Of a stretch of DNA of 64,000 bases, positions 737-62,317 are shown one piece after another. This stretch comes from Hemileia vastatrix (Eukaryota > Basidiomycota > Pucciniomycetes > Pucciniales > Zaghouaniaceae): assembly GCA_030280995.1 (NCBI GenBank), contig JASXTE010000016.1, positions 26,373,501 to 26,437,500 on the forward strand, written 5' to 3'. A model generated the notes under the pieces. It ran no database searches. It saw only the letters and a list, made by a program, of their open reading frames with translations, and was not told the origin of the DNA. Position 1 is the first letter of the stretch. Every line of letters begins with the position of its first letter. The translations under genes and the position numbers were made by a program.

Positions 737-740
737 AGAT

Positions 741-9265: not shown

Positions 9266-9318
9266 AGGAGTTTTTTTTATTTTTTATTTCTAAATCAAGA
9301 TTTTTGGGCAAGAAGTAA

Positions 9319-9942
9319 TTACCGAAAAGAATCAAGAGATGTAACAATATGTTCAGCATTGGCTTTGAACTGGTGGATGAGTTTCTTCCTTTTAGCAAGG
9401 TCCTGTAAGTTCCTGGCAGGAGTGGATTGAAAGTAATCTTGGATGAGATACTTCTGTTGAGAAGAATGTTGTTGGAAGTTGTTTTTGATGGTTGGCATGG
9501 ATTAGGTGAGGGTTCTTCAAGGGTTCCCACATTGTAATCATCACTGTCTGGATTGGAATGAACTGGAAATTGGTCAGATTGAATTTCATTATGAAGAAGT
9601 ATTGGGCTTACCATTAGAAGGACCAGGGATGGAGGAGCTAGTGTTTGTAGTGGGGTTGGAAGTCTTTTTTGAAGGGTGTAACTTGTTGACCAGTCTGGGG
9701 ATCAGGATGGATGGTCTGGATCTTTTGGTGCTGGTAGAAGGCGGATCATTTTGTGGAGGAGGAGAAGATGTTGAACAGGAAAATGGACCAGGTCTGAAAC
9801 AAGTATTCTTCCTAGAGTGACAGGCATCACAGGAGGTTCTGTAGGGATCAGTTGGAGGTGCAATGGTACAGATGAGATTGTTGTAAATGCAGTATTGACA
9901 AGGACCCTTGTCAGTAGCAGATTTGGAGAAGAAGCTGAACAT
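9319..9942 (-). pseudogene. Antisense zinc-cluster-like gene 2 of El-1, two exons, frameshifted
   Basis: Exon 1 runs from ATG 9942 to 9612 and holds six cysteines spaced CX2CX6CX12CX2CX6C within the first 50 residues. This is the Zn2Cys6 spacing, with the second half reading CDACHSRKNTC. A low-complexity Ser/Pro/Thr region with KRSR follows. An intron of 49 nt (9611-9563, GTAAGC..CCAG) fits. Exon 2 needs one frameshift to reach a tail with YFQSTPARN and DLAKRKK, clearly related to the tail of the El-7 antisense gene (YFQETPANN, DLMKRR). The tail frame ends at TAA 9319-9321. Such clusters normally bind DNA in the nucleus; that role is inferred. Confidence 0.65.
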
Positions 9943-9981
9943 GGTGGTTGTGATGAAGGAGAATGTGTATATTCTCTATTC

Positions 9982-9990
9982 GAGGGAGGA
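9982..9990 (+). promoter_or_regulatory. Polypurine tract of El-1
   Basis: A purine run GAGGGAGGA lies directly before the TGTGG start of the 3' LTR. The same run precedes the El-7 3' LTR. It would prime plus-strand DNA synthesis. Confidence 0.75.
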
Positions 9991-30853: not shown

Positions 30854-30927
30854 ATGTCCAATAGTTTGGCTAGCAGCATGGATAACTTACATGTGGATGA
30901 GGTTGAAGTGGATAATGACACTGAATC
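30854..30927 (+). pseudogene. El-4 leader ORF, first segment, cut by El-5
   Basis: The ATG at 30854 opens an acidic frame (MSNSLASSMDNLHVDEVEVD) that stays open up to the El-5 insertion. It resumes after the target duplication at 39781. This is the first of the overlapping leader frames also seen in El-3 and El-5. Function unknown. Confidence 0.6.
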
Positions 30928-38086: not shown

Positions 38087-38596
38087 ATTGTTAATAATGA
38101 CAATATTTCATGTCTGCAGAAAGGAAAAACTCTATGGAATTAGTAGACAAAATATATTAGCAATGATATTACTAATAAAAAAGCAATGGAGCTTACCCTG
38201 AATTTATATCTTTATTTACTTAAATAAATTATAAGAAAAATTCGAAAAAATATGTTAAAAATAGAATAATAATTTCAACTAAACCTTTATAAGGGTGAAT
38301 AAGTAGCTTACTAAGATTTAACCAAATACTAATTAAATTGGGTGTTATATTGGTGTCCAAATACCAAGTGAAATTGGGTTTATATTGGGTACAGTTACTA
38401 CTGTAAATACCTAATTTTTATGATAAAAAATTAGTACAATTATTTTAAGGGTTCTTTTCCGCAATCACTGAGTTATTATTACCCACTAATATGCAGCAGA
38501 CCCAAATATTTGGTTATTTTGAGCTGTACCAAGGTAAAAATCACGTCCCAAGGTTTATAGTAAATAATAAGTAAAATATAAAGAAAGACCCCCAAT
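38087..38596 (-). other. El-5 leader with putative primer site
   Basis: No gene is visible. On the minus strand TGGGGGTCTTTC begins two bases after the 5' LTR, in primer-binding-site position. The tRNA is not identified. Confidence 0.45.
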
Positions 38597-39775
38597 TGTC
38601 AGTATAGTCTAGTATATAAGTATGATATAATAGTTTTTATTTATGGTCCTACTACTTATTGATAAGTGATTTAGTGATTAAACCTGAGGGGAATACTAAT
38701 AAAATAGTTATACTCAAATAAAACTCACAATACCTGGATTTAAATGCGTGCTAGTGGTGGAAAATAGATGAATAAAAATATAGTTATAGCTTTATATAAA
38801 GATGATATCAATTTATAGTGGCTTTATGATATATTTCTAAAGGTTAATAATTGTATAGTAGTGTTTGTTGGAGTTGTAGTAATTGAATGATGATAAATAA
38901 CCATCAAAATCCCTCCTTACTTATACCCAAATCCACTGGAGTGCACAGACCTTCAATCCAGATGATGTCACTGCTATCCCCGGCAATTACAGCACTTTGA
39001 GGGCCCATCACCTCCCCATGGTGTCCACTTCAAGCAGTTTCAACACCCAGACCTCCAGTAAGGACCCTCCATCACTATTAATAATAACACAGATCCATAC
39101 CATAAATAGAAAACCCAGATAAAAGCGGATACCATAAAGAAACAGGTAAAATAAACAATCAAAAAGAGATTTAATGAAACTAAAAGCATATAAAGGAAAC
39201 AAATAAAATGTCCAAGCCCCCAATAACATACCCAAGCATCCACATTAACCCGGAAATATCCTTCCAACCCATAAATCCGTGAATAACCATCCAAGGAAGT
39301 AATTTTAGTTGTCCAAACTGGGTGTATGCGCCTGATATAGGTGTCTATGCTTCTGTAGGCGTTGTGAGTCCACTGATTTCCTCCATATGACCTGAAATAA
39401 GCATAAAAACAAAGGTTATAGGCTATTAAGGGGCTAAAACCCACTTATATACCTAAATATACATAATATACTGCATATTTCACTGAATATGAGATTTATG
39501 TATACATATAAGCTTATGTATGTCAATAACTACTTCATATCACTTAAGATAAGTATATTATGACTCCATTAACACCTTAAACAATGTTATTAGGCCATGG
39601 ACAAGCTATTTAAACTATTATAAGTTATATAATAGAATAATAATTATATATATATATAATAAAATAATATATATTATTATTTTAACCTTATTTTTAAGAT
39701 ATAAGCTTAATCTACTTAAGGTTATCTTATTTTAAGCATAAGAAATACTCATTCCTAAGGATATTTAGGCTGACA
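38597..39775 (-). mobile_element. El-5 5' LTR (alpha)
   Basis: 1179 bp, TGTCAG to CTGACA, nearly the same as the 30928 copy with scattered differences. It holds the 134-codon frame at 39040-39444. The two LTRs differ at many sites, so El-5 is clearly older than El-7. Confidence 0.93.
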
Positions 39776-39780
39776 GAATA

Positions 39781-40032: not shown

Positions 40033-40805
40033 TGTCACACGCCACGTGACACTCGAGGAAAAAGCAGCTCATTAAATCAAAAATATCAAGTTCTAAATCT
40101 ATACTCGAAGCGCAGAAAGCAATTCACCATAGCAACTGCAATTCCCCTTTGTGTACTTACTATTCAACTGCGCTAGCCTAAACTCTAAATCTAAATTAGT
40201 CAATCTCTCAATAGTGTGTCTTAGTCTTAATTTCAATAAGCGACGCACAGCGCTATGATCAACGTAATAGTACATTAGTAGTTTTCATTAAAAAGTTTGT
40301 TAATTATTTAAAAGGGGTAAATTGAACATGGACGGATATTAGCAAAGAGGGTCTAAGTGTATGTTATTAATGGTCTGTGGTATGGGAATGGTACAATGAG
40401 AGGGAGGTCAATGCGAGGAGGAATAAAGGATATAAAAGGGTTGAGTTTTTGGTTCGACATTCCTTAGAATTAAATTATAAAACGTATTTACATTTAATAG
40501 TGGTAAAATTACAAAATTAAATCATTGTTATTGTATTTTTCTTTAAACTTTCTCAGTAATCATTTCTAAAATCCTAAATCCTTGATTGTTGAGTTTCAAA
40601 CCCTTTGTGAGATCTTAAGAATTCCTATTAACTTTGAAACTATATTATAATTCTTCTCGAAAATACCTTGAGCCCGTAGCTCTTACTTCGAGTGACCTTT
40701 GAATCACTTCCTCGAATCATTCCTCTGTGCTTCGAAGAAGTTTCTAAATCCCTCATCTCACTTTCAGGAAAATCCTCGACCTTGTGCATAGGTTGTCCGG
40801 TGACA
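40033..40805 (+). mobile_element. El-6 5' LTR (delta)
   Basis: It starts TGTCACACGCCACGTGACAC and ends GGTGACA. A TATA box TATAAAAGGG lies at 40431-40440. No clear tRNA primer site follows. Confidence 0.93.
40431..40440 (+). promoter_or_regulatory. Likely TATA box of El-6 5' LTR
   Basis: TATAAAAGGG is 399 bp into the LTR, repeated at 60825-60834 in the 3' LTR. Confidence 0.6.
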
Positions 40806-40877
40806 GTATAATTTAATTCTCTGTAGTTCTCATTCTTTGACCTACTACCTCCTTTTAGGTGTTTTTAAAATTTTAAA

Positions 40878-43032: not shown

Positions 43033-44135
43033 TGTGGTAGCCTAAAGTTTAGTACGGCACCTAAGTACGTAAATGGAGTTATTACGGCGTGCAAGATTGG
43101 CGTTATTATTTTTTTATATAAAAGGGTTTTATTTAATTTATTTGAGTTTTAAATATGAAGAAATTGGTCACGAGCGAATTCCTACACGAAAACAATTTAT
43201 TTTACGGAGAAAACTTATTTTTACGGTCTGAAAAATTTATAAGTATTAAGTCAAGTCACTCAAGAACCTTGGGAAATTTTCCCAGAATTTTTACTATTTT
43301 TCTTATATTTTTAAATGAATTTTAAAGTTTTATAGAAATATTTACGTTTTTCAAAAATTACTTAACTTTGATGAATTTTCACGGGGTAATTAGAGCTGCG
43401 CAGACTACGAAAATTCGTTTGGTAGGTAAAGGGGAAGTAGCTCTATTATGTGTAATTTTTCTAGATTTTTTATTATCGTTTTAAGGTTCTAAATTGAGTC
43501 CGGAAGTCCGGACGGACTCCGTACGGACTCCGTACGGGCTCCGGATTGACTCTGGAAGAGCTCTGGAGGGGAAAACTTAGGCACGTGACTAGGAATACTT
43601 AAGCGCTTCTCAAACTCGAAATTGAGGGGGGGGACACATCATACAGCTTAATCATTGACCACCACGGTCTCATTTTTTATTTCTCAACAAATTAAAATAA
43701 CTTGTAATACCCTTATAACATTATTATTTTTACATAACATCTTAGAAATACAATTCAACAGTTTAAATAACACTTCATACAGGGTATCTTTAGAAAGGTC
43801 TTCGTCGCTGGAACTTGATTATTGCTGTCTCATAAAAATTCAAATTATTATAAAAACATAAAAGTCAATCTTTACAGATCTTTCACTGGTACACCTTAAT
43901 TGTTGTTATCAGTATTTCTTTATCAACAGCCACTTTCTTTAAACCTCAAATAAGCGTTAATTATTTTAGAGTTTCATTATTTTCATCAATCAGATCCAAG
44001 TAGATTGGTTAGCTTAGTGATTTAGAATTCCCATTTTGTTATTTTTATTGGAAGGACGGGGTTTTCCACTAAATCCACATATCTCCTCCGGATTCTGCTT
44101 ACAGCAAGGCGACTGTAAGAGTTTACCTTACCATA
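43033..44135 (+). mobile_element. El-7 5' LTR (gamma)
   Basis: It runs from TGTGGTAGCC to CTTACCATA, so its 3' end is not the usual CA. A TATA box is at 43116. A GC-rich patch at 43499-43556 has tandem GGACTCCGTAC units between TCCGGA sites, unlike the AT-rich surroundings. Confidence 0.95.
43116..43125 (+). promoter_or_regulatory. Likely TATA box of El-7 5' LTR
   Basis: TATATAAAAG lies 83 bp into the LTR, and the copy at 54784 is the same. So early a position would leave a very short U3, or it may not be the true promoter. Confidence 0.45.
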
Positions 44136-44137
44136 GT

Positions 44138-44155
44138 TGGCGCCCAACGTGGGGT
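44138..44155 (+). promoter_or_regulatory. Primer binding site of El-7, complementary to tRNA-Lys(CUU)
   Basis: TGGCGCCCAACGTGGGG begins two bases after the LTR. It is the primer site complementary to the 3' end of eukaryotic tRNA-Lys(CUU), the same type used by tRNA-Lys1,2-primed retroelements. Confidence 0.85.
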
Positions 44156-44206
44156 TCGATTTCTCTAGCTTTCTTTAAAAGACTTACTTGGATCAAGAAC
44201 GTTATT

Positions 44207-44270
44207 AGCCTGCAAGAGGCTTATTTTCTGGAACTCTAATTGGATTTTTGTTATTGGCCTGCAAGAGGCT
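44207..44270 (+). repeat. Two GCCTGCAAGAGGC hairpins in El-7 leader
   Basis: Copies at 44207-44222 and 44255-44270 share TTATTrGCCTGCAAGAGGCTT. Each folds GCCT with AGGC around GCAAG. They resemble the CCTC-N6-GAGG repeats elsewhere in El-7. Position between primer site and gag would suit a packaging or dimer signal; this is inference. Confidence 0.6.
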
Positions 44271-44312
44271 TGTTATTTTATCGATTGTTAACGCTTTTCA
44301 TTACTTATTGGG

Positions 44313-46922
44313 ATGTCTTCTTCTGCTGTTGCTTCTGGATCTTCTAACCCTCTTACTCCCTCAGTTAGAATTGTTTCTTGGGATGGCCCAAAGTTTGATG
44401 GGGAGGAGGTTAAATGGTTCATTAGCAGGTATGAAGCTGCTGCTGCTGTTGATGGTGCTTCCCATGAGGACATGGTAAAGCAAGTTAGATTTTTTATTGC
44501 TGATAGGGAGGTGGAAAAAGAGGTTATTGCTATGCAGGCATTTAAGGACAAGGATTGGGTTAAGCTTTCTAAAGCTATGGTTGATAGATGGGGTGTTAGG
44601 TTTACTATGATGGACCTCAACAAAATTGTAGGTGACTGGCAAGCTAAAGGTGGTGTTTCTTCAATGGTGGACTTCAAAAAACTTTGTGTTCAGTTTGATG
44701 AAGTGGTAGAATATCTTATTTTGGTGGATGAATTAGTGCATGAAAATCAAGCAAAAGATTTGTTTTGGTCAGCATGCAGTAGGGATATTCGAATGGACGT
44801 CTTGAAGGATCTCTCAAGAAAGAATTTAATGAAGGAACTGCCAAACGGTGAGCAGAAGTTACCGGCTCTGGAGGTTATTAAAGAGAACATCCAAGCCCAT
44901 CTAAAGTTATTAGCGTTGGACAAGTATCAAGAGTCTTGCACTCAATATGTCAGTAAGGTTAGCGAAGTTTTGGCCGAGAACAACGATATTATGGTCAAAG
45001 CCCAGGAGGCCAAGAAGGCACAAATGGGTGTTCCTGCTGCAAAAGTTGAGGGCAATGTAGACAACAAGATGGTCGATCACTTGGCCGATTTAACGAAACA
45101 GCTAAAGATATTTGTCCAAGAGACTCAAAAGGCCAGTAAGGCCCCAATCGCTTCCTCGTCGACATCGACTTCTTATCAGTCTAGAGGGTATGAACGTCGA
45201 AATTATAATGGCAATAACAACGGTAACCACTTCCCAGGCAATGGGAGAAATGGTGGGAATGGTGGTAATGGATATAGAGGTGGCTATGATGAGCCAAAGG
45301 TGTGCTCCTATTGTAATAGGAGGGGGCATAGAGCAACAGTTTGTTTTGCTCTTGATAAGGATATGGATGCTGGGCGAGTTTTATTTGATGGTAAAGTTTA
45401 TAAATTTCCCGATGGTTCGTTCATCAAGCCCAGTGATGGACAGTCTCCTTCTGATTTGGTCAGAAGAAGTTTAACGGCTGAAAGAAGAGCCAGATTTGAA
45501 GAGGTGACGGATGAAGATGTTAATGCCAAGGGTGGCAAAAATGGTAACGGTAATGGTGGAAAAGCTGACAAAGGTAAAGAGAAAGAGGTCAGTAAAGCCA
45601 CATTTTCTACTTCTTTTGGTGGTTTAGAGCTGGCGACGGTTGCCCAGGTGGAGGGTAGCTGTATGGCTGGCGAATATGATGTTAATGCTGCTAGAAGAGC
45701 AGCTGCTACTAAGGCGAAAAGTAGCATTCAGAGCCAATTGAGGGCTAATCCTGGCAAGGCCAATAACAAAGTGAACCCTTACTCTAAGGACAAGAATTCT
45801 AGTGCTCAAACTGCCGTCAACAAATTGAACCCTTACTCTAAGGACGAATTATATAAAATGCAGAAGGGGATTGCTGATATGGGGCCCCCTAGTTATGGCA
45901 AGTTTGATTTAAATGGTGAGCCTATGCCAGAGGACGATTCGGATTCTGAGGAGGACGTACCGTTGGCGTCTCTACCCAGACCAAGTTTTAGTGGTCCCAT
46001 CCCAATGGAGGGTGTAAGAAGGACTAGCGATGGATCAGGATTAGTGCAAGAAGCTGGTGACGGAGTTAGGGTTATAGAAAGTGAAGATGTTATAATGGGG
46101 GGTGAAGATGGCTCGGTTGGACCTCAAGAGGTACCCAGGGCCAAGGTTGTTAAATCAAAGGTCCAGTATGAGCGGCCAGTAGTTTCTGGTCAAGCTAATG
46201 CGATGGACGCAGTTTTGAATAGGGTGAATCAACTGCAGATTCCCTTATCTTTGGGGGAGTTATTTACGATTAGTCCGGCGCTTGCTGAAAAGCAAAAGAA
46301 GCATTTGACGAGGCGTCGGGTTTCCACTGGAGAGGTGGAATATATTTGTGAAAATGCTGAAAAGTTTGGGGAAGATGTAGATACACATTTTTCCGCTCCC
46401 CTGGGTTACCTGGTGGTAACTCTTAATGGTAAAGAAGTAAAGGCCTTGGTCGATTCAGGGTCTCAAATTAATTTAATTTCATTGGAGCAAGCGACGAGTA
46501 TAGGCTTGCCAATTAAAAGTGGAACTGGGGGAAACCTCAGAGGTATTGGAGGGCATGCAACAGAGCTGATGGGTACTGCTGAGCATGTCAGGTTAGGCAT
46601 TGGTGGATCTGTTGGTAAGGTTCACTTTTATGTGGCCAGAGGAGCAGTCAAAACTGTTCTTGGTGGTCCTTTTTTGATGGATTTTGAGGCCAGGATAGGG
46701 TATCAAGCTGGCATGGGGATTAGTTTGGAGATCACTGGTGAAGATATGCGGAGGTTGCATATGCGGTTAGCGCCTCCTGGAGATGAAGGTTGGGAAACAC
46801 GGCCAGGGATTACTACTCTGTGCCAGTGTTGTGTTTGCACAAAGAAGCGGCATATAAAACGGACGGCTTCTGGTGAATTATGTTGGTTGGAAAGGGATGA
46901 ATGCCCTCATTTTTTGGGGTAG
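44313..46922 (+). CDS. gag: El-7 Gag with C-terminal aspartic protease, 869 aa
   Basis: The ATG at 44313 is the first after the leader. Residues ~20-220 are a capsid-like helical region (WDGPKFDGEEVKWFISRYE). A Gly/Asn-rich stretch leads to a zinc knuckle CSYCNRRGHRATVC (CX2CX4HX4C, about residue 330). An acidic linker follows. Residues ~700-800 are a retropepsin-like protease with LVDSGSQINLIS (catalytic Asp about 714) and VLGGPFLMDF. A cysteine-rich tail (CQCCVC) precedes the TAG at 46920. Protease inside the gag frame, not the pol frame, is an unusual arrangement. Pol follows in the -1 frame across a slip site. The frame is fully open, so it could be functional. Confidence 0.93.
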   Translation: MSSSAVASGSSNPLTPSVRIVSWDGPKFDGEEVKWFISRYEAAAAVDGASHEDMVKQVRFFIADREVEKEVIAMQAFKDKDWVKLSKAMVDRWGVRFTMMDLNKIVGDWQAKGGVSSMVDFKKLCVQFDEVVEYLILVDELVHENQAKDLFWSACSRDIRMDVLKDLSRKNLMKELPNGEQKLPALEVIKENIQAHLKLLALDKYQESCTQYVSKVSEVLAENNDIMVKAQEAKKAQMGVPAAKVEGNVDNKMVDHLADLTKQLKIFVQETQKASKAPIASSSTSTSYQSRGYERRNYNGNNNGNHFPGNGRNGGNGGNGYRGGYDEPKVCSYCNRRGHRATVCFALDKDMDAGRVLFDGKVYKFPDGSFIKPSDGQSPSDLVRRSLTAERRARFEEVTDEDVNAKGGKNGNGNGGKADKGKEKEVSKATFSTSFGGLELATVAQVEGSCMAGEYDVNAARRAAATKAKSSIQSQLRANPGKANNKVNPYSKDKNSSAQTAVNKLNPYSKDELYKMQKGIADMGPPSYGKFDLNGEPMPEDDSDSEEDVPLASLPRPSFSGPIPMEGVRRTSDGSGLVQEAGDGVRVIESEDVIMGGEDGSVGPQEVPRAKVVKSKVQYERPVVSGQANAMDAVLNRVNQLQIPLSLGELFTISPALAEKQKKHLTRRRVSTGEVEYICENAEKFGEDVDTHFSAPLGYLVVTLNGKEVKALVDSGSQINLISLEQATSIGLPIKSGTGGNLRGIGGHATELMGTAEHVRLGIGGSVGKVHFYVARGAVKTVLGGPFLMDFEARIGYQAGMGISLEITGEDMRRLHMRLAPPGDEGWETRPGITTLCQCCVCTKKRHIKRTASGELCWLERDECPHFLG

Positions 46923-49900
46923 CAGGGGCTGATCGCTCAAATGTTGTAATCTCTCCTCAGGATGAGATCCCGGATTGCAATAGGTCAGCTCACTTGGAGA
47001 TAATTCAAGTGGATTCTCAATTATTTTCTGTTAATATTACTTTGGAGTGCAAATACGTTTTGGACTTTTCTATATGTTTATTGGATTTACCCGGTTTTTC
47101 TATTAAATTTAAAAACGGTGAAAAAGGCAAAATGGGCCAAATTAGGTTGGATAAAAATTGGAAGGGTATGTTTTATGACCTCCAGCAAGAGGTTAAACTG
47201 CAATTATCTCCTTCTATTACGGACCTCCAGCAAGAGGGTAAACTGCGAAAATCTTATCTAAATCCGATAAAAAATCTCAGTATAATTAAAACACAAAAAA
47301 ATAATTTTTGTGAAAATTCAATTCCGGTTCTCCAGCAAGAGGTTAAACTGCCAACTTTCTTTACGGGTGATTTACTGTTGGATAAGGGAAGAAAAGGTGT
47401 TGGAAAATCTGTTTATAAATTAGACGAGGGAAAGGAGAAAAGGGTAAAATTTAAAAATGAAATAAAATATTTTTCTAATTTTTCTTATTCTGATTCTGGC
47501 GATGAAGAAGATTCATTTGATGAAAGTTTTAATGGCGATGTTTTACCTCAAGTTTATTTAGATGTGGACGCAGCCAAATATAAGAAAGTAGCAAATAAAG
47601 TTCGACCTATTAATGAACCGCTACCTGCTGAATTAAATCCACCTTTGAGAAGACCAAGGTTATCAAGAGATCCTTATGAAAGTCCCTTGGTAAAGAATCC
47701 GCCTGAATTTTCTGAGACGTCAAGAATCACTTTTGAGAGACTGGGTGTTGTAAATTTTGGACCTGATGGTTGGTTGTCTGGAGAAGAGAAGAAGTTGTTG
47801 TTGGATGTGATGGTCAAGCGAGAGAAGGCCATTGCTTTTGTAGAAGAGGAGAGGGGTGTGTTGAAGCATTCCTATGGGGAGCCTTACAAGATTCCTGTGG
47901 TATGTCATGAACCTTGGCAGCAGAAACCGATTCCTATTCCGGCTGCATTGAAAGAAGCTTATATCGAAGTTGTCAGAGAACGGATACGCACTGGACTGTA
48001 TGAGCAATCAACGTCAAGTTATTCTAGTCCGGTATTTTGTATCAAGAAACCAAATGGCAAGCTTAGAGTTGTTCATGATCTTAGGGAATTAAATAGGGTT
48101 ACAATAAAGGATGCTGGGATACCGCCTAGTGCTGAGGAGTTTGTTGAAGCGTTTGCAGGGAGAGTGTGTTATGGTTTAGGAGATATTATGGGTGGATATG
48201 ATGAGAGAGAGTTACATCTGGACTCAAGGCCTCTCACTACATTCGATACGCCACTTGGACGTTTACAGTTAACAAGATTACCTCAAGGAGCAACAAATTC
48301 GGTTACAGTTTATCAAGCTCAGATGGCTTGGATCCTTCAAGATGAAATTCCACAATATGCTGGAATCTTTATAGATGATGGAGGAATTAAGGGACCAACA
48401 ACCGACTATGATAACCAGGTGTTGGAAGAGAATCCCGGGATACGCAAATTCATTTGGGAGTTTGCAATTACTTTAGAAAGAATCTTGTTTCGAATTGAAG
48501 AGGCTGGTTTAACTATTTCAGGTTCAAAATTTTCATGTTGTGTGCCAGCCTTAGAAATATTAGGCCATGTGGTATGTAGAGAGGGTAGGATTATGTCCAA
48601 GAAGAAAGTTAACAAAATTCAGTCCTGGCCAAGACCCAAGAATACGACCGAAGTTAGAGGGTTTTTAGGTGTTTGTGTATATGTTAGAATGTTTATTAAG
48701 GACTTTTATTCATTGGCAGCTCCATTGAGACGGTTAACGAGAAAGGATGCAGACTGGGAGTGGGATGAAGAGTGTGAGAAGGCGTTTGTGAAGTTGAAGG
48801 AGGTTGTAGGGAAGGATTTAGTCCTGCACAAGTTTGATTATGGAAAAGAAGCTGGCAGAATTTATTTAGCGGTTGATTCAAGTCAGGTTGCAGCTGGGGC
48901 GGTTTTGTCTCAGATGGATAAAGCTGGTTACATCAGGCCAGTTAGGTATGAATCTGTAGTATTTACTGAGGTCGAATCAAGATATTCTCAACCGAAATTG
49001 GAATTATGTGGTGTGGCGAAAATACTGAAGAAACTTCAGCATATTTTGTGGGGGCAACATTTTGAGTTGCAAGTGGATGCGAAATCGTTAATCCAGATGA
49101 TTAATTCCCCAAGTTTACCGAATACACCCATGACGAGATGGGTAGCTTTTATTCAACATTTTTCATTTGATTTAGTTCATAAGCCTGGCAAGACTTTTAC
49201 TATGCCAGATGGTTTATCAAGAAAACCACCCACTGAAGAAGATTCAGACTCAGAAGAGTTCGATGAAGATATACCTATTATCAAAGCCAGCATTAAAGGA
49301 GCTGAAGACTTTCCATACCTCCCCCATGAGGTTAAACTGGCAGGGCTATTGTGTTTAGATTATGATGATGATGACCTCCACCAAGAGGATAAACTGGAAA
49401 ATAGTTTTTATGTTAATAAAGGTGTTGGAAAAGGTGTAGATAAATTCGGCAGAGAGGAGGTAGAAGTAGATGTGGTGTATGTAGAGGAAGATGGATTGGT
49501 AGTGTGGGATAGTAGTAAATTAAGGAATGGTGTATATGTTGGAGAATTAGAGAATTTAAATAAAAAGGTGGATAAAGAGAAAGAGGTATTTTCAAATACG
49601 GTTTTCGAAGGATCCAAAGGTTCAGAAGAAAAACGTCGACATAGCTCGATTAAAAATTTATTTAGGGGTCAACGATTATTGGCTCATTCATGTGCAGGTG
49701 ATATTGGTGATAGAGAAGTCCCTATTGATGTTATATTAATCGATTTTCAAGATGAAGTCTGGGGTCAGACTGGTTTTTATTTTTTGTTAGTCAAATATTT
49801 GTTGACTTTAGAGAGGCCAGAAGATTGTGAAGACGATGAATGGGTGGCTATCAAGAGGAAGTCATCTATGTTTTACCTATCTGGTCGACGTTTAATGAGG

Positions 49901-51055
49901 AGAAGGTATCCAAATCCTCAAGTAGTTATAACTAAACAGAAGGGGCAAGAATTAGTTTTGAAATCACTGCATGAAGATCTCGGGCATAGAGGCGTTGGAG
50001 AAACATTTAGAAGAATTTCTGATCGATTTTGGTGGCCTGGCATGAAGATGGCTGTTAAACAGTGGGTTCAGTCATGCGAAGAATGTCAAAGACGAAGTTA
50101 TTTAAGGCCAAAAGAACCTGGACGCGCGACCGGTGAATATACGCTCTTTGGAAGAGTTAGTTTAGATGCTGTTCATATAAAAGAGGGACGGTATAAATAT
50201 TTAATTGTGGCCAGAGATGATTTATCTGGTTGGGTAGAGGCAGCTCCTCTTATTAATTTAACTGCCAAAAATGTGGCAGAATTCTTTTTGAATAATTGGG
50301 TATATAGGTATGGGGTGATGAAGTTGGTAACGGTAGATGGAGGTCCTGAATTTGGGACAGAGTTTAAAGAGGCTGTATTGAAAGTTGGATCAAAGGTTAG
50401 GGTAGCAACCCCATATTATCCTGAAGCTGAAGGCATGGTTGAAAGAGGGCATCAAGTTATCAAGGATGCTTTAGTTAAAATGTGTGGGACAAGTGCCGAA
50501 AAGTGGAGGCACTATTTACCTTTAGTTTTATTTGCTGATCGAATCACTGCCAAAAGGACGACCGGATTTTCACCTTATGAACTTGTTTTTGGACAGAAAG
50601 CAGTTTTACCGGTTGATTTAGAAGCTGAATCATATCTTGGAGTTGACTGGGACACGGTCAAAACTACTGAAGAATTATTGTGTGCAAGAATGATGCAGCT
50701 AGAAAAGAAAGAAGAATATTTAGAAAAGGCATATTCGCGGATGATGAAGATCCAAAATCAATCAGTTAGATATTGGGATGAGCGGTTGGCACATCGATTA
50801 AGGAAACCTTTGAACCCAGGAGATATGGTCCTGGTGTATAATAGGAGTTTGGAAAGTCAGTGGGGAAAAATGTTTGCAGATAGGTGGAATGGACCGTATA
50901 AAATCAAGGAGCAAGTTTCTGGCGGTTCATATGTGCTAGAAGAGTTGGATGGAGTAGTATTGAAGAAGAGGGTAGCGGCCGATCAAGTGAAATGGTTCTA
51001 TCCTAGAGGCACCAGGAGTGCCGAAGTCTTCCTCCGCAATGAGGATAAACTATGA
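46901..51055 (+). CDS. pol: El-7 Pol: RT, RNase H, integrase, 1384 codons
   Basis: It is in the -1 frame relative to gag, probably entered by frameshift near 46913 rather than from the ATG at 46901. The first ~240 residues are specific to this family and hold three LQQE(V/G)KL peptides encoded by the hairpin repeat. RT spans about residues 330-560 with the polymerase box FIDD (490-493). RNase H has VDSS near 658. Integrase has its zinc site HEDLGHRG..CEEC (about 1023-1060). The core residues are D in LDAVHI (~1088), D in VDGGPEFG (~1145) and E in GMVERGH about 35 residues later. A GPY-type C-terminus (~1331) ends it; there is no chromodomain. The last codons are another hairpin repeat (FLRNEDKL). 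No stop is seen. Confidence 0.95.
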   Translation: MPSFFGVAGADRSNVVISPQDEIPDCNRSAHLEIIQVDSQLFSVNITLECKYVLDFSICLLDLPGFSIKFKNGEKGKMGQIRLDKNWKGMFYDLQQEVKLQLSPSITDLQQEGKLRKSYLNPIKNLSIIKTQKNNFCENSIPVLQQEVKLPTFFTGDLLLDKGRKGVGKSVYKLDEGKEKRVKFKNEIKYFSNFSYSDSGDEEDSFDESFNGDVLPQVYLDVDAAKYKKVANKVRPINEPLPAELNPPLRRPRLSRDPYESPLVKNPPEFSETSRITFERLGVVNFGPDGWLSGEEKKLLLDVMVKREKAIAFVEEERGVLKHSYGEPYKIPVVCHEPWQQKPIPIPAALKEAYIEVVRERIRTGLYEQSTSSYSSPVFCIKKPNGKLRVVHDLRELNRVTIKDAGIPPSAEEFVEAFAGRVCYGLGDIMGGYDERELHLDSRPLTTFDTPLGRLQLTRLPQGATNSVTVYQAQMAWILQDEIPQYAGIFIDDGGIKGPTTDYDNQVLEENPGIRKFIWEFAITLERILFRIEEAGLTISGSKFSCCVPALEILGHVVCREGRIMSKKKVNKIQSWPRPKNTTEVRGFLGVCVYVRMFIKDFYSLAAPLRRLTRKDADWEWDEECEKAFVKLKEVVGKDLVLHKFDYGKEAGRIYLAVDSSQVAAGAVLSQMDKAGYIRPVRYESVVFTEVESRYSQPKLELCGVAKILKKLQHILWGQHFELQVDAKSLIQMINSPSLPNTPMTRWVAFIQHFSFDLVHKPGKTFTMPDGLSRKPPTEEDSDSEEFDEDIPIIKASIKGAEDFPYLPHEVKLAGLLCLDYDDDDLHQEDKLENSFYVNKGVGKGVDKFGREEVEVDVVYVEEDGLVVWDSSKLRNGVYVGELENLNKKVDKEKEVFSNTVFEGSKGSEEKRRHSSIKNLFRGQRLLAHSCAGDIGDREVPIDVILIDFQDEVWGQTGFYFLLVKYLLTLERPEDCEDDEWVAIKRKSSMFYLSGRRLMRRRYPNPQVVITKQKGQELVLKSLHEDLGHRGVGETFRRISDRFWWPGMKMAVKQWVQSCEECQRRSYLRPKEPGRATGEYTLFGRVSLDAVHIKEGRYKYLIVARDDLSGWVEAAPLINLTAKNVAEFFLNNWVYRYGVMKLVTVDGGPEFGTEFKEAVLKVGSKVRVATPYYPEAEGMVERGHQVIKDALVKMCGTSAEKWRHYLPLVLFADRITAKRTTGFSPYELVFGQKAVLPVDLEAESYLGVDWDTVKTTEELLCARMMQLEKKEEYLEKAYSRMMKIQNQSVRYWDERLAHRLRKPLNPGDMVLVYNRSLESQWGKMFADRWNGPYKIKEQVSGGSYVLEELDGVVLKKRVAADQVKWFYPRGTRSAEVFLRNEDKL
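46910..46991 (+). promoter_or_regulatory. -1 frameshift signal of El-7: slip site T TTT TTG plus stem-loop
   Basis: The gag frame reads CAT TTT TTG GGG TAG, giving T TTT TTG at 46910-46916. After nine bases, GGGCTGA (46926-46932) pairs with TCAGCTC (46985-46991). Inside, TGTTGTAATC (46942-46951) pairs with GATTGCAATA (46973-46982), including two G-U pairs. Pol is open in the -1 frame. El-1 keeps the same fold with different bases. Confidence 0.75.
47179..49397 (+). repeat. Hairpin repeats inside El-7 pol coding sequence
   Basis: Five in-frame copies of CCTC-N6-GAGG-(T/A)TAAACTG lie at 47179, 47224, 47328, 49318 and 49375. They encode LQQEVKL, LQQEGKL, LQQEVKL, LPHEVKL and LHQEDKL. The third has lost the first C of the arm. 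They fall in the N-terminal linker and in the linker between RNase H and integrase, not in folded domains. Confidence 0.8.
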
Positions 51056-51337
51056 TATCTACAAAATTTTATGGATTCCTCCGCAATGAGGATAAACTAT
51101 GAAATTTCTTAAAATTTATACCTCCGAAATGAGGATAAACTATGATGTTTATAAAAATTTTATGAAGACCTCCGCAATGAGGATAAACTACGAAATTTCT
51201 TAAATTTTATCAACTCCGAAATGAGGATAAACTACGATTTTAATGACTTTTATTAAATTTATGGAATCCTCCGCAATGAGGATAAACTATGATATCTACG
51301 AAATTTTATGGATTCCTCCGCAACGAGGATAAACTAT
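51031..51337 (+). repeat. El-7 array of CCTC-N6-GAGG-ATAAACTA hairpin repeats
   Basis: Seven copies start at 51031, 51078, 51121, 51169, 51214, 51268 and 51315, spaced 43-54 bp with AT-rich spacers that often contain AAATTT. The first copy overlaps the pol stop codon. Loops are CGCAAT, CGAAAT or CGCAAC. Irregular, similar spacers and covarying arms elsewhere set it apart from CRISPR. Confidence 0.88.
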
Positions 51338-51539
51338 CATCTTTTTTTATCAAAATACTTTACTATCGTTACATTGTATATGGTCGACGAAACTATGATG
51401 GAACTTAACGAAATTCAAGTAGACCTTCTTTGAAATTTTCAAAAACTTAAAATTCTTTAAATATGGGTGAAGATAGTGTTGGAAAATTTTTAAAATTTAT
51501 TGGAAGAAGTGTTCACAGGGGAACCTTCTTAATTTAATA

Positions 51540-52010
51540 TTGGCAAGTGTGGGGGTAATTGATGGGCTGGCTGCTCTATACACAATTACCCCATAATGTT
51601 CGTTTCCAAAATTTTCCCTGTTTCTAGTTGAATCCTGGCTTTGTCTTTTAATTATAGGAAGTCCACTAAGACTATAAACTGGAACGAATCAAGAGACACC
51701 GCTCTCAACGCCGGATTCAAGATTCTTCTATTTTATTTTGTTTTTGATTTTTTTTATGTTAGATTGTGATTTCTTTTCTTTAATATATATTATGAATTAT
51801 TGTAAAGGTGATGCTCACTGGTGGTCTCTAATCATTTTTATAAATTGGAGGGAGCCCACCCAGTGATCATCATTATAAAAATTATCTTCTAAAAACTTTC
51901 ATTTATTTTCTTTTCTTTTCAATTTCTCAAAATTGTGTAACCACATCAAGTTGCACTTGGATGTGGGTATGATGTCGAGGGTACGGCTCATCAAATGGCC
52001 GGGGGGCATC
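51540..52010 (+). repeat. El-7 block of three larger hairpins
   Basis: GGGGTAATTG..CAATTACCCC lies at about 51549-51590. GATGCTCACTGGTGG..CCACCCAGTGATCATC lies at about 51810-51873, with an inner CTCTAAT/ATTGGAG pairing. CCACATCAAG..CTTGGATGTGG lies at about 51943-51967. All three occur in the same order in El-1. One AGTC-N6-GACT repeat is at 51660. Confidence 0.75.
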
Positions 52011-52440
52011 TTTTAAAATTTTATTTTAAAATTTTTTTTAGTACTTTTTTTATCTTTTTTTTCACATTCATTTATCTTTCTTTAAAATTAAATTTTAACT
52101 TTTATTTCAAAACTATCTTTTCTAAAATCTTTTATTTTAAATTTAAAAAAAAAAAAAAAAAAAAAAATTAAAATTAAAATTAAAAAAAAAAATAAAATAA
52201 AATAAAATAAAAAAAAAAATAAAAAAAAAAAATAAAATAAAATAAAAATAAAATAAATAAAAAAAAAATAATAATAATAATGATAATAATAATAAAAAAA
52301 AAAAAAATTAAAATTTATTAATTAAATCAAAATCATTATTATATTTCTTAGTTTTAATTTTTTTTTTTTTAGTTTTCATTCTTTTTAGTTTTATTCATTT
52401 AGTTTAGACAAGAAACAGGGTCTAGGAGAACTCAATACCA
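52011..52440 (+). repeat. Low-complexity T-rich then A-rich tract in El-7
   Basis: Mostly T runs to 52140, then AAAAT/AAATAA-type simple sequence to about 52330. El-1 has a shorter A-rich tract at the same place (6965-7040). No gene. Confidence 0.8.
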
Positions 52441-52467
52441 ATGGGATTTTACTTCAAGACATCTGTT

Positions 52468-53290
52468 AGTCCTCCAAGACTTTAAACTGGCTACTGTTCA
52501 AGACATTCTTTAAGGTTTTTTTTTTATATATGTATTTTGGATCTGTTAGTCCTCCAAGACTTTAAACTGGCTACTGTTCAAGACTTTCTTTAAGGTTTTT
52601 ATACAAATTTTGGAGCTGTTAGTCCTCCAAGACTTTAAACTGGCTAATTTTCAAGACTTTCATTAAAGATTTTATAATGGAGCTGTTAGTCCTTCAAGAC
52701 TTTAAACTGAATTTCAAGGATTTTCAAGATTTTATGGATATTTTCGGAGACGGATTTTTTTTTATATAAATCAAATGTTAGGTCCACCAAGACCTTAAAC
52801 TGGAGTGTTATCAAATGTTAGGTCCACCAAGACCTTAAACTGGATTGTTATCAAGCTGTTGGGTCCACCATGACCTTAAACTGGATTTCTTATCGATTAA
52901 ATGTTTGGTCCACCATGACTTTAAACTGGTAGTTCATTCATTGTTTAGTCCACTATGACTTTAAACTGGAAAATTAATATCTGCAGGATAATTCAACATT
53001 CATTGGACCACTATGGCCTTATACTGGATTACTTGTCGATCAAATGTTTGGTCCACTATGACATTAAACTGGATTATCAAATTTATTCAATCTTTGGTCA
53101 AGCCTAGGCCTTACTTAGGAATATATCAAGATATTTATGCACTTAAACGATCTTTGGTCCACCAAGACCATAAACTGGCAATCGATTATATGTTTGGTCT
53201 ACCAAGACTTTAAATTGGAATGTCAATCTTGTTTGGATAACTCAATTCAATCTTTTAATTTATCACTGTCCCCTAAGACTCTAAACTGGT
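52468..53290 (+). repeat. El-7 array of AGTC/GACT and GGTC/GACC hairpin repeats
   Basis: About thirteen copies, each arm-N6-arm followed by TTAAACTGG. The first four (52468-52710) use AGTC/GACT, the next ones (from about 52780) use GGTC/GACC or the G-U intermediate GGTC/GACT, and the last ones decay. Loops are mostly CTCCAA, CACCAA or CACCAT. Longer identical units (about 80 bp) repeat at the start. Confidence 0.88.
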
Positions 53291-53879
53291 TATTCAATTA
53301 TTTCTGGAATTGGGTGCTGAAAAGCTTTAGGAGGTTAAAACTTTAGGTGGTGATGATGCTAAAGAAAGCATAATGGTTAATTAGGTGAAATTTGTGGCGC
53401 TTTAACATGGTCTAAAGTTAATATTATTATTGGAAGCCTGGCAAAAGTATTTTATGGGTTTGCTGTATAGAAAAGTTTGAAAATTGTGATGAAGGAATCA
53501 GAAGTTAGGATGGTAGTTGGATTTTAGGGAATGATTTTTTTAGTGCCTCATAGTTAGGCCATTTTTTTTTTGGTGTGAAGCTTGGAGGACCTTATGGCGA
53601 GATTGGAATCATAGAATTCGGCTCAGTGGGGGGCCCTATGAGGTTGGAATCAGGAGTATTCGGCTCATAGGAAGATCCACTCTCTCAATGCTGTGACAAG
53701 AAGGAAGACTGGTATATGGGAGTCTGAAGGGATTCAAACCTTGCTCTCAGTAGTGGAATCATCACAAGATTTATTTTATTTTATTTTATGTTATATCAAG
53801 CCAGAGAAGAAAGAAAACATCATTTATGTTGAAAGTTTAAGAAGACCAAGCAAAAACAAAATTTTATCAAGTTATACTG
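53291..53879 (+). other. El-7 stretch without recognised feature
   Basis: No conserved domain or hairpin repeat is seen. A near-duplicate GGAATCATAGAATTCGGCTCA / GGAATCAGGAGTATTCGGCTCA pair occurs at about 53605-53680. A plus-strand 86-codon frame (53693-53953) overlaps the antisense gene and has no recognisable features. Confidence 0.4.
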
Positions 53880-54577
53880 TTAAAAAAGATAATTTCTTTG
53901 AAATTGTTCAACATCATTATCAAAGCTTTGCATTAAAATTCTTCTTTTCATGAGGTCTTCATGGTTATTAGCTGGAGTTTCTTGAAAATAGGCCAGCATT
54001 TTTCGTTTCAACTCATTAGTAAAGTCAAGAAAAAGATAGCGATGAAAATTTGGGTAATGATTAATATAGTCCGTCTTCACTCTACCAACATCATCAGTGT
54101 TGGTTAATTCGACAGCTAGAAGTTCAAATATGTTATTAAGTCATAGGTTTAGTCAATTTTGATTAAAAGTTTTTTTTTTTTTAGTAAGATAAATAGGGTC
54201 TTACATTTAGAGCCAGGAAACATAGTCTCAGCAAAGTTAGTTGGGGGTACTGGCGTTATAGGATTAGGATCTTGTGAAGGCAAAATTAGGCCGGGATCCG
54301 CTGATGAAGATTGAACTTTTGAAGCTGTTTTTGATCTTATTCATTTTAAGAAGACAGGAATTTTGGATCGCTTTTTAGATGTTGAGGGATCAGGGAGAGC
54401 TGCTGGTCCTAAATATACGTTTGTTTTAGAAGGAACTAATGGCCGGTTGCATTTGACTTTTTTCACACGGCATAAGTCGCAAGCTGTTCTGCCAGGAAGA
54501 TTAGGATTGGACATTAAACAAGGTACCTGGTATCGAGCGCAGAGTTCACATGGAGCGACAAGTTCTTTGGAAGACAT
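53880..54577 (-). pseudogene. Antisense two-exon Zn2Cys6-like gene of El-7 with one stop
   Basis: Exon 1 runs from ATG 54577 to 54205. Near its start six cysteines are spaced CX2CX6CX12CX2CX6C; the second half reads ACDLCRVKKVKC, typical of fungal zinc-cluster DNA-binding proteins. The intron is 54204-54116 (89 nt, GTAAGA to TTCTAG, possible branch TTGACTAA). Exon 2 (54115-53880) is in frame and ends in a helical tail with YFQETPANN and DLMKRR. A single TGA at 54341-54343 (codon 79) interrupts the frame; El-1 reads through this place. Total length would be ~202 residues. Its likely promoter side is the antisense face of the 3' LTR, ~120 bp away. Nuclear DNA binding is inferred from the cysteine pattern. 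Confidence 0.7.
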
Positions 54578-54687
54578 ATTGATGAAGATGAATTTTATAG
54601 TTGATTAAAGAAGATGGTGGTTGAAGGTTAAAGATGAATATTGTGTTCAACCCCTTATGCAAAGCTTTAAGAATGGGGACATTCTCG

Positions 54688-54700
54688 ATTGGAGGGAGGA
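54688..54700 (+). promoter_or_regulatory. Polypurine tract of El-7
   Basis: GGAGGGAGGA directly precedes the TGTGG start of the 3' LTR, as in El-1. Confidence 0.8.
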
Positions 54701-55803
54701 TGTGGTAGCCTAAAGTTTAGTACGGCACCTAAGTACGTAAATGGAGTTATTACGGCGTGCAAGATTGGCGTTATTATTTTTTTATATAAAAGGGTTTTAT
54801 TTAATTTATTTGAGTTTTAAATATGAAGAAATTGGTCACGAGCGAATTCCTACACGAAAACAATTTATTTTACGGAGAAAACTTATTTTTACGGTCTGAA
54901 AAATTTATAAGTATTAAGTCAAGTCACTCAAGAACCTTGGGAAATTTTCCCAGAATTTTTACTATTTTTCTTATATTTTTAAATGAATTTTAAAGTTTTA
55001 TAGAAATATTTACGTTTTTCAAAAATTACTTAACTTTGATGAATTTTCACGGGGTAATTAGAGCTGCGCAGACTACGAAAATTCGTTTGGTAGGTAAAGG
55101 GGAAGTAGCTCTATTATGTGTAATTTTTCTAGATTTTTTATTATCGTTTTAAGGTTCTAAATTGAGTCCGGAAGTCCGGACGGACTCCGTACGGACTCCG
55201 TACGGGCTCCGGATTGACTCTGGAAGAGCTCTGGAGGGGAAAACTTAGGCACGTGACTAGGAATACTTAAGCGCTTCTCAAACTCGAAATTGAGGGGGGG
55301 GACACATCATACAGCTTAATCATTGACCACCACGGTCTCATTTTTTATTTCTCAACAAATTAAAATAACTTGTAATACCCTTATAACATTATTATTTTTA
55401 CATAACATCTTAGAAATACAATTCAACAGTTTAAATAACACTTCATACAGGGTATCTTTAGAAAGGTCTTCGTCGCTGGAACTTGATTATTGCTGTCTCA
55501 TAAAAATTCAAATTATTATAAAAACATAAAAGTCAATCTTTACAGATCTTTCACTGGTACACCTTAATTGTTGTTATCAGTATTTCTTTATCAACAGCCA
55601 CTTTCTTTAAACCTCAAATAAGCATTAATTATTTTAGAGTTTCATTATTTTCATCAATCAGATCCAAGTAGATTGGTTAGCTTAGTGATTTAGAATTCCC
55701 ATTTTGTTATTTTTATTGGAAGGACGGGGTTTTCCACTAAATCCACATATCTCCTCCGGATTCTGCTTACAGCAAGGCGACTGTAAGAGTTTACCTTACC
55801 ATA
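54701..55803 (+). mobile_element. El-7 3' LTR (gamma)
   Basis: 1103 bp, matching 43033-44135 except for one difference that I saw (55624). It is followed by ACGG and the El-6 RT continuation. Confidence 0.96.
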
Positions 55804-59358: not shown

Positions 59359-60314
59359 TCAAATTTTCTCTTTTAATTTTTCTCGAACCAATCCTTTCAT
59401 CTTCTCCAAAATTACCCTTATCTCCTTCCTGCATTTCTCAAATACCTCCTCCTCTCCTACCGGAACCACCTCTCCAATCTCCAACAGTTCCTCTGCCACG
59501 TCGAAGGAAGAAGTGTCAATAATTGTATTGACCTCCCCACACAACTCTTCTTCGAACCTAACTTTTTGACCCTGACGAGGCTTCTTCGACCACACCTGGT
59601 CTAGCGTTTCCTCAGGTTCTTATATTCCACCCGTGACCGGAGGGTTTGCCTCAGTTGGCAAAAGCGACGCAGGTTCCCCAATTGGGTCTTCAACAATAGC
59701 ATTCAATGTCTAAAAAAGAACTCATCAGTAACCTCATCCCTAAAAAAGCAACAGATAAAACTTACTTTGAAGATGGGGTCAGGTTCTAAGAACAACCTTG
59801 GAGCCACCTCTACCTCTGCTTCTTTCTCCTCCTCGTCATCTTCAATGACCACCCGTCGTTTTTTGGGTGTCCGCCTTGGAACAGGGACTTCATCCTCATC
59901 TTCCTCCACCAATTCATCGATCTCTTCTTTGACACCCCGTTTTGAACCTGTGGCCTGGGTTACCCAGGTTGTGATCTTGTTATCTAGTTCCTTATTGTTC
60001 TCCCCCACCGATTGATTGTATCCAACCGAGACATCCCAAATGTCTTCGACCACCTCTTTTGTTTTAGGGATCACCCAAAACTTAGTCTTGGTGAATCGTC
60101 GTCCAATCTCTGCGTTCTTTGTCAACGCATTGCACGCCATTCGTCGCCAACGGCAAAACTCGCACTTCTGGCGAGGGCCTCAAGTCGCCGTACTTTTGAC
60201 ACAAAAGTACTCCATCGCTTCACAAGCCGTGCAAGCCTGGGATAACTGTCGCGTAACCATTCCCCCATCCGCTTTAGGGTGTGGAGGCGTAGGCGTTGGG
60301 GTAGGACAGTTCAT
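59359..60314 (-). pseudogene. Antisense two-exon Zn2Cys6-like gene of El-6 with two stops
   Basis: Exon 1 runs from ATG 60314 to 59766. Residues ~29-60 carry cysteines spaced CX2CX6CX12CX2CX6C (ACTACEAMEYFC, then CEFCRWRRMAC), with a TGA (60180-60182, codon 45) between the halves. An acidic Glu/Asp-rich stretch with PKKRR follows. The intron is 59765-59710 (56 nt, GTAAGT..TTTTTTAG, possible branch TACTGAT), phase 0. Exon 2 (59709-59359) has one TAA (59620-59622) and ends in a charged helical tail (EKCRKEIRVILEKMKGLVRE). Length would be ~299 residues. It lies between pol and the 3' LTR, as in El-7, though the elements are from different lineages. Function inferred only from the cluster. Confidence 0.7.
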
Positions 60315-60426: not shown

Positions 60427-61199
60427 TTTCACGCGCCACGTGACACTCAAGGCAAAAGCAGCTCATTAAATCAATAATATCGAGTTCAAAATCTATACTC
60501 GAAGCGCAGAAAGCAATTCTCCATAGCAACTGCAATTCCCCTTTGTGTACTTACTATTCAACTGCGCTAGCCTAAACTCTAAATCTAAATTAGTCAATCT
60601 CTCAATAGTGTGTCTTAGTCTTAATTTCAATAAGCAACGCACAGCGCTATGATCAACGTAATAGTACATTAGTAGTTTTCATTAAAAAGTTTGTTAATTA
60701 ATTAAAAGAGGTAAATTGAACATGGACAGATATTAGCGAAGAGGGTCTAAGTGTATGTTATTAATGGTCTGTGGTATGGGAATCGTGCGATGAGAGGGAG
60801 GTCAATGCGAGGAGGAATAAAGGATATAAAAGGGTTGAGTTTTTGGTTCGACATTCCTTAGAATTAAATTATAAAACGTATTTACATTGAATAGTGGTAA
60901 AATTACAAAATTAAATCATTGTTATTGTATTTTTCTTTAAACTTTCTCAGTAATCATTTCTAAAATCCTAAATCCTTGATTGTTGAGTTTCAAACCCTTT
61001 GTGAGATCTTAAGAATTCCTATTACCTTTGAAACTATATTATAATTCTTCTCGAAAATACCTTGAACCCGTAGCTCTTACTTTGAGTGACCTTCGAATCA
61101 CTTCCTTGAATCATTCCTCTGTGCTTTGAAGAAATTTCTAAATCCCTCTTCTCAATTTCAGGAACATCCTCAACCTTGTGCCTAGGTCGTCCGGTGACA
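60427..61199 (+). mobile_element. El-6 3' LTR (delta)
   Basis: 773 bp, the same length as the 5' copy, with scattered differences. The first bases are TTTCACGCG instead of TGTCACACG. It is followed by the target duplication GGTAG. TATAAAAGGG lies at 60825-60834. No clear polypurine tract precedes it. Confidence 0.93.
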
Positions 61200-62317
61200 G
61201 GTAGACACACTCTGGCAGCAGATGCAGGAATTGTTAGATCCCAAACAGTCTCAAACTCCTTATTTCCCAGCCTCTCAGCCTCAGCCTCAACCTCAGCCCA
61301 ATAAGGTACCCAGCTCCTTCACGCGAAATCAAAGCACTCTGCAAGTGGAACAGTGGAAATGGGATTACTTGATGAGCCATTACCAGAAGAATGTTCAGCA
61401 ACAAGCTCAACACCCTGGCCCATCCAGGACACAAACCTACCATCCAGCTCCTCAGCCCCATTGTCAGCCAGGCTACTATACTTAATCGGTAAAATAATTA
61501 ATTATTTTACTGAGTTGAAGCCACACCCCTTCTTCTTACTAATAATTAATTATCTACTTAATTATTACTTATAATTAACTAGTTAAGTACAATAAGTAGT
61601 ATAATCAATTAGTGTTAATAAAATGTCCCCTACAATTTTACTCCCTAACACTGTGCTCAATAGTATAAGTCAATGGGAATAGAATTTAATAATAAAATTA
61701 TAATAAAAAAAATTTAAAACAATTATATTACCTCAGTGAGAGATCTGGAATCCCGTGAAAGTAATATAATTAATTAATTATTGTGTAATTAATTGTTACA
61801 GTCCAAGGAACTCAAAATTTATTGCTAATAAATTTGATGCCCTTGTTGACGTACCAGTTTATTTATTTCTTATGTCATATATGTACTCCTTTTAGTCATT
61901 CTTTTTCTCACATTCTTACAGTATATGGTGTAAATTCCGTATATTTTATTCCCTCATGTTTTGCCTATAAAAGGCCTTTTACTTTGTACTTTTCAGAACA
62001 TTCATTCATCACTTACTTTATTATTACAATTACAATACAACACTTATTTCTATATTTTATAACTTTAGTATTTACAACAGCGTAATTCTAATCTATAATC
62101 TATACTTATATTATAAAACTACCTCTTATATTTGATTAAATTAATCAATTTGATTAAGAAACTACGTTCTTTACTTTGAGAGTTCATTTAATCCCCAATT
62201 TTCCTCGTATAAACCTCAAATAAACTTCTAGACCCAAAAGGACCCCTTGACACCCATCCTTATCAGGGAGGCAGAAGAAAGAAGGCACAGGGAAATTTTC
62301 CTCCCTTACCATGGTAA
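61200..62317 (+). pseudogene. El-4 leader ORF, last segment, split by a solo LTR
   Basis: The frame from 39810-40032 resumes here with DTLWQQMQELLDPK, a PQ-rich stretch and the conserved VEQWKWDY motif. It breaks at the solo LTR (61462-62252) within PQPH and continues as PYQGGRRKKAQ, ending at TAA 62315-62317. The stop overlaps the ATG of gag (ATGGTAA). El-5 has KWKWDWF and HPYKGKKR at matching places. Confidence 0.75.
61462..62252 (+). mobile_element. Solo beta LTR with 5-bp target duplication
   Basis: 791 bp from TGTCAGCCAGGC to CCTTGACA, flanked by CCCAT on both sides (61457-61461 and 62253-62257). TATAAAAGG lies at 61976-61984. It carries an AATAATTAATTATT palindrome near its start, shared with the El-2 LTR fragment. 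Confidence 0.93.

Follow-up and report, generated by a model that had tools for sequence, protein, structure and literature searches.

An antisense gene with a Zn2Cys6-type cysteine cluster beside the 3' long terminal repeat of Ty3 retrotransposons in Hemileia vastatrix

The antisense gene of El-7

In a 64,000-nucleotide stretch of contig JASXTE010000016.1 of the fungus Hemileia vastatrix, referred to here as the window, the Ty3-type long terminal repeat (LTR) retrotransposon El-7 carries a minus-strand gene between pol and its 3' LTR. The predicted spliced product is a small protein with six cysteines in Zn2Cys6 spacing; comparable frames adjoin the 3' LTRs of two further Ty3 elements of the window, El-1 and El-6, and among copies of both these frames are under purifying selection. 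We regard it as probable that this is an accessory gene of several Ty3 families, transcribed antisense from a promoter in the 3' LTR and encoding a nuclear protein that binds DNA and regulates the element. The parts of the El-7 gene are as follows.

53880..54577, minus strand: El-7 antisense gene, between pol and the 3' LTR; 202 codons when spliced
54577-54205, minus strand: exon 1, with the start codon at 54577; carries the zinc cluster
54449..54550, minus strand: zinc-cluster segment, C-x2-C-x6-C-x12-C-x2-C-x6-C; order of halves opposite to that of GAL4-type proteins
54116..54204, minus strand: intron, 89 nt, GTAAGA..TAG, phase 1
53883..54115, minus strand: exon 2, C-terminal part common to El-1 (YFQETPANNHEDLMKRR...)
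53882-53880, minus strand: stop codon

An earlier note, made from the letters of this DNA alone, had described a minus-strand gene at 54577-53880 between pol and the 3' LTR, with Zn2Cys6 cysteine spacing, an in-frame 89-nt intron and a tail shared with El-1. The window sequence confirmed the gene, the spacing (2-6-12-2-6) and the intron (54204-54116, GT..AG, phase 1), and tblastn recovered the El-1 relationship for both the tail (E 2.7e-5) and the cluster exon (E 2.3e-8). Two points were amended: the order of the cluster halves is opposite to the canonical one, and the single in-frame TGA that breaks exon 1 despite intact gag and pol, also seen in that note, is private to the window copy among 21 copies examined. 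The window's gene is a dead allele within an otherwise open element. The interpretation as an antisense zinc-cluster accessory gene was supported; the swapped halves, the El-6 case and the closeness of the start codon to the LTR go beyond what had been noted.

The El-7 antisense stretch is found at 97-100% identity in no fewer than 40 places of the 747.6-Mb genome (791 contigs), counting the window; 40 of 2161 first-look candidates were scored, and 20 of the 39 outside the window were fetched. All 20 fetched copies lack the TGA and are open for 202 aa via the same splice sites, so the suspicion that no other copy has the frame open fails. The ATG and all six cysteines are each kept in 19/20, and GTAAGA..TAG in 20/20. 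The exons of the 21 copies are free of indels, which are present in the intron and flanks. Open frames were rejected as proof of selection, because purifying selection was not seen in the gene among these copies and just 1.8 stops were expected by chance among 36 changes without selection.

Related genes in El-1 and El-6

A six-frame scan of the 64 kb for Zn2Cys6 spacing, permitting up to one stop, returned three frames, all on the minus strand, all spaced 2-6-12-2-6 and all adjoining a 3' LTR, in each case that of a Ty3 element on the plus strand; 20 mononucleotide shuffles gave none. The gap between start codon and LTR is 123 nt in El-7, 48 nt in El-1 and about 112 nt in El-6.

9799..9900, minus strand: El-1 zinc-cluster segment; start codon at 9942, El-1 3' LTR from 9991
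60132..60233, minus strand: El-6 zinc-cluster segment, with one stop inside in this copy; start codon at 60314, 3' LTR from about 60427
30925-32104 and 38596-39776, minus strand: repeats read as the LTRs of a further Ty3 element

In this last, minus-strand element the window scan found no cluster frame, with <200 bp between pol and LTR, and the gene is therefore not universal.

El-1 is the closer relative of El-7, with pol 64-69% identical in the longer pieces. El-6, whose LTRs span about 40033-40806 and 60427-61200, belongs to a distant Ty3 lineage (22-28% identity in pieces of pol). Both antisense exons are common to El-7 and El-1 at the protein level, with identical place and phase of the intron. 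The exon 1 alignment scored 127, compared with 36.8 +/- 6.5 in 500 shuffles, and that of exon 2 scored 93, compared with 26.1 +/- 4.8. Codons have turned over beneath this conservation: 23 of the 31 identical exon 1 residues use differing codons, and identities at codon positions 1/2/3 were 0.42/0.48/0.32 and 0.58/0.58/0.33. The El-1 intron is 49 nt long, and its GT and AG are each present in 27/28 copies. An intron-like GTAAGT..TTTTTAG with a T tract of variable length follows the first exon of El-6, the GTAAGT occurring in 21/22 copies. Compared with the El-1/El-7 cluster, that of El-6 gave a tblastn E of 5e-4 and an hhalign probability of 15.6% (E 0.0017), and the two may or may not share a common origin.

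Both families are abundant. The best 150 of 10,984 first-look candidates for the El-1 frame all matched (79-88% identical, the query itself aside), and 125 of these 150, counted from the table, were free of stops. The best 150 of 6169 candidates for El-6 also all matched, with stop-to-stop frames often of 216-303 codons and at most 392.

Purifying selection was detected in both. The El-1 sample comprised 28 copies, eight taken as they came (two with a stop) and 20 chosen for open frames. The nonsynonymous fraction of changes, N/(N+S), was 0.66 in exon 1 against 0.75 expected (P 0.002), and 0.58 against 0.73 for shared changes in exon 2, where 0/1000 simulations were as low. The eight copies by themselves gave no signal (40/55 nonsynonymous, 42.0 expected); it came with the 28. 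For El-6, we used 21 copies, 20 chosen for open frames and one with a stop, leaving the window copy out. Here N/(N+S) was 0.551 against 0.702 expected, as low in 0/2000 simulations, with 58/54/104 changes at codon positions 1/2/3 and no deficit in any of the five other frames. The earlier note had pointed to neutral substitution across copies as a sign against the gene; changes within El-7 do fall as by chance, but those within El-1 and El-6 do not.

A second antisense frame of El-1 lies at about 8717-8457 (minus strand); it begins rich in cysteine and, beyond a stop, has the basic stretch NFKKKRCDRD. The initial 49 residues of this frame matched in the best 150 of 5173 candidates in the genome, where open frames reach up to 453 codons.

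The zinc cluster and its swapped halves

The cysteine rule of Pfam PF00172 (Zn_clus) is C-x2-C-x6-C-x(5-12)-C-x2-C-x(6-8)-C, with which the 2-6-12-2-6 spacing of El-7, El-1 and El-6 agrees. Against a cut-off of 21, the piece of the window's El-7 protein before the stop scored 26.4 bits, in line with the assignment made in the earlier note; a whole copy scored 24 and El-1 21.2. By spacing and score, the El-7 and El-1 antisense proteins belong to the zinc-cluster superfamily. The canonical order, in which the basic half stands first and one collinear PF00172 match covers the cluster, was not found, and the protein is therefore filed as a zinc-cluster variant. The best PF00172 stretches pair residues 31-45 of El-7 with profile positions 1-15, and residues 14-30 of El-1 with positions 18-35. 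At weak E-values, the two halves each match LAC9 and GAL4, but in exchanged order; the swapped pairing beats the parallel one in 9/9 half comparisons, and all three families have a net basic second half. Judged from these alignments, the cluster is half-swapped, with the basic half second where GAL4-type proteins have it first.

Among solved chains, the best sequence match was PPR1 (E 0.0087). The El-1 model has two short helices, and Foldseek listed 18 rows, all with E above 1 and all 18 of which we take to be Zn2Cys6 DNA-binding domains. The Pfam match of the protein is confined to the zinc-cluster domain, and NCBIfam gave one insignificant match.

Searches of the protein collection returned nothing at E 10 for the 202-aa protein (24 candidates), at E 1 for alignment A1 (2607 candidates) or at E 0.001 for gag (7991 scored). 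The missing homologues say little, because gag was also unmatched and the collection may lack the host group. PF00172 matched 13 of the 150 scored candidates in the fungus's own genome, none at the places of the fetched copies. Twelve of these 13 lie at coordinates <111 kb on contigs such as C472, C511, C313, C446 and C698, and the contigs of these 12 yielded no copies of the elements; contigs with such matches might come from another fungus in the sample.

El-7 and its surroundings

El-7 occupies 43033-55803 on the plus strand and is flanked by a 4-bp target duplication, ACGG, ends and duplication having been placed by eye. Its LTRs are 99.6% identical across 1112 aligned bp. It sits inside El-6, into which it apparently jumped, and no env was seen in the retrotransposon.

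43033..44135, plus strand: El-7 5' LTR
44292..46922, plus strand: gag-protease frame, open, 876 codons stop to stop
46901..51055, plus strand: pol frame with reverse transcriptase, RNase H and integrase domains, open, 1384 codons stop to stop
54701..55803, plus strand: El-7 3' LTR, 123 nt from the antisense start codon
55164..55212, strand unassigned: CCG/CGG cluster with candidate binding sites, built on an 11-bp tandem unit, GGACTCCGTAC, of variable number; also in the 5' LTR at 43496-43544

A palindromic TATA-like stretch, TTTTATATAAAA, which can be read bidirectionally, lies at 54783-54796, ~210 nt upstream of the antisense start codon, and recurs at the corresponding position of the 5' LTR.

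A repeated motif occurs at 47180-53290 in El-7 and at 4259-9190 in El-1, consisting of a perfect 4-6 bp stem with a 6-nt loop, mostly followed by (A/T)T-AAACT(G/A). The stem is present at 20/28 AAACT[AG] sites in 46901-54700 (mean 3.3 and maximum 8 in 200 shuffles) and at 7/15 such sites in 1-9990. Where stems vary from site to site, the two arms change together (ACCTC/GAGGT, TCCTC/GAGGA, AGTC/GACT, AGGTC/GACCT); this suggests base pairing, and the repeats could perhaps form an RNA binding array. A search of 51000-54700 against Rfam gave two matches far below gathering scores, which were put down to chance.

A candidate target in the LTR

GAL4-type proteins bind CCG/CGG triplets. The densest cluster of these triplets in the window lies in the El-7 LTRs, with 11 in 100 bp, compared with a maximum of 8 in 200 shuffles. 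The number of GGACTCCGTAC units varies among the 10 LTRs compared, namely the window's two and those of eight other copies (12 copies were dropped, their LTR not aligning in one piece). An El-1-like LTR at 18576-19669 contains 8 triplets, the shuffled maximum being 7. A CCG/CGG rule for all LTRs was rejected, El-6 LTRs and 7/8 El-1 3' LTRs being without excess. As these clusters are not common to all families, CCG/CGG as the target is a guess, and for El-7 only.

Weighing the explanations

We propose that antisense transcription most likely starts from a promoter within the 3' LTR, because the start codon is just 48-123 nt from it. The transcript would be spliced and translated into a small protein carrying its half-swapped Zn2Cys6 cluster, which presumably binds zinc, at the N-terminus. 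The most likely function predicted for this protein is that of a nuclear DNA-binding regulator of its own element; in El-7, the CCG/CGG sites of the LTR may be where it binds, raising or damping gag-pol transcription.

Several results weigh against this proposal. Purifying selection in the antisense gene was not seen among El-7 copies, but it was seen in pol: 27/36 changes in the gene are nonsynonymous or stop (28.7 expected under random placement, P 0.29; 21 copies), as are 8/9 of the shared ones, while a 2631-nt part of pol in the same copies has 167/306 nonsynonymous changes (230.3 expected) and 33/96 among shared changes (69.3 expected). Gene and pol differ in their shared changes (Fisher P 0.002, on few sites). 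The antisense gene of El-7 is therefore relaxed, diversifying or too recent for a verdict. Significance is missed in El-1 by the shared exon 1 changes taken alone (P 0.06-0.07) and by all exon 2 changes pooled (P 0.11-0.12), and one other exon 1 frame is also low (P 0.011-0.018), its third positions being common with the gene frame. The El-6 cluster scored 9.9 bits, under the PF00172 cut-off of 21, and its fold prediction was unusable (mean predicted local distance difference test score, pLDDT, of 33). Finally, the El-6 LTRs hold 3 and 4 CCG/CGG triplets, below expectation, and 7/8 El-1 3' LTRs stay within the shuffled maximum.

A bolder version of the regulator proposal is one we hold only tentatively. 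It would make the protein, in at least two distant Ty3 lineages, a permuted Zn2Cys6 antisense feedback regulator of the element's own LTRs and a fungal counterpart of the viral protein HBZ, with the number of CCG/CGG repeats in the LTR setting the response of each El-7 copy.

Among the alternatives, the one that survives best, although we doubt it, is that the gene encodes a real antisense accessory protein that does not regulate transcription; bearing zinc, it would bind nucleic acids to serve RNA export, packaging, the choice of target sites or counter-silencing. The domain suggests nothing beyond nucleic-acid binding, CCG/CGG clusters are absent from El-6 LTRs, and the internal region of El-7 is rich in repeated hairpin-like motifs as possible ligands; however, most or all of the listed matches, whether by structure or by profile, are to sequence-specific DNA-binding domains, and in each of the three families the second half has a net basic character. 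It is unlikely that the gene is a captured host zinc-cluster gene carried as a passenger without use to the element. The neutral change among El-7 copies would agree with this, but the purifying selection in El-1 and El-6, the many copies and the same position in two lineages with pol pieces 22-28% identical argue otherwise. Slightly less likely again is that the antisense RNA matters, through double-stranded RNA or interference, and that the protein frame is incidental. PMC7264820 allows that retrotransposon antisense transcripts may act so, and the neutral pattern within El-7 would fit. Against it, El-7 and El-1 conserve the protein while their codons have turned over, and selection in El-1 and El-6 is specific to the frame. 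A chance frame with chance cysteine spacing, which the TGA of the window copy and the neutral El-7 pattern might suggest, we regard as already refuted by the selection, the between-family conservation and the absence of any such frame from all 20 shuffled windows, as compared with three out of three on the minus strand beside a 3' LTR in the window.

Known systems and significance

Antisense additional open reading frames of plant Ty3 elements, namely gene23 of maize Grande and those of rice RIRE2 and Silene Retand (TRP28 proteins), are described in PMC7264820 and PMC11963269, which also name HBZ of human T-cell leukemia virus type 1 (HTLV-1) as an antisense gene. Like the frames of Grande, RIRE2 and Retand, that of El-7 lies antisense between pol and the 3' LTR. 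It differs from these plant frames in its fungal host and its zinc cluster, in the intron that interrupts its coding part, and in how near the start codon lies to the LTR (48-123 nt across the families compared). No Pfam match to TRP28 (PF04195, Retand) or to bZIP was found in the El-7 protein or in exon 1 of El-1 and El-6.

HBZ is a bZIP protein of a retrovirus. It shares with the present gene the antisense orientation, the adjoining 3' LTR and a presumed role as regulator of the sense promoter, and differs in that ours has a zinc cluster and belongs to a retrotransposon, with an LTR promoter suggested by the 48-123 nt distance of the start codon. The protein resembles GAL4, LAC9 and PPR1 in its six cysteines at permitted spacing, in its basic half, ACDLCRVKKVKCN, near ACDICRLKKLKCS of GAL4, and in the two short helices of the El-1 model. 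Unlike them, it has swapped halves, is encoded by a retrotransposon and has a Pfam match limited to the zinc cluster. The literature searched, with subscription journals mostly outside it, yielded no fungal zinc-cluster antisense retrotransposon gene, in keeping with the earlier note, and no report of a permuted Zn2Cys6 arrangement.

Antisense genes beside a 3' LTR were already known from plants and some retroviruses; the present case is fungal, has a recognizable regulator-type domain and recurs in many natural copies of at least three element families. Function and the co-evolution of regulator and LTR are therefore testable on natural variants. A permuted Zn2Cys6 cluster, if true, would also widen the range of arrangements of a transcription-factor domain that is very common in fungi. 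Such elements could carry a regulator and its binding sites together through the host genome, and may regulate themselves much like some retroviruses.
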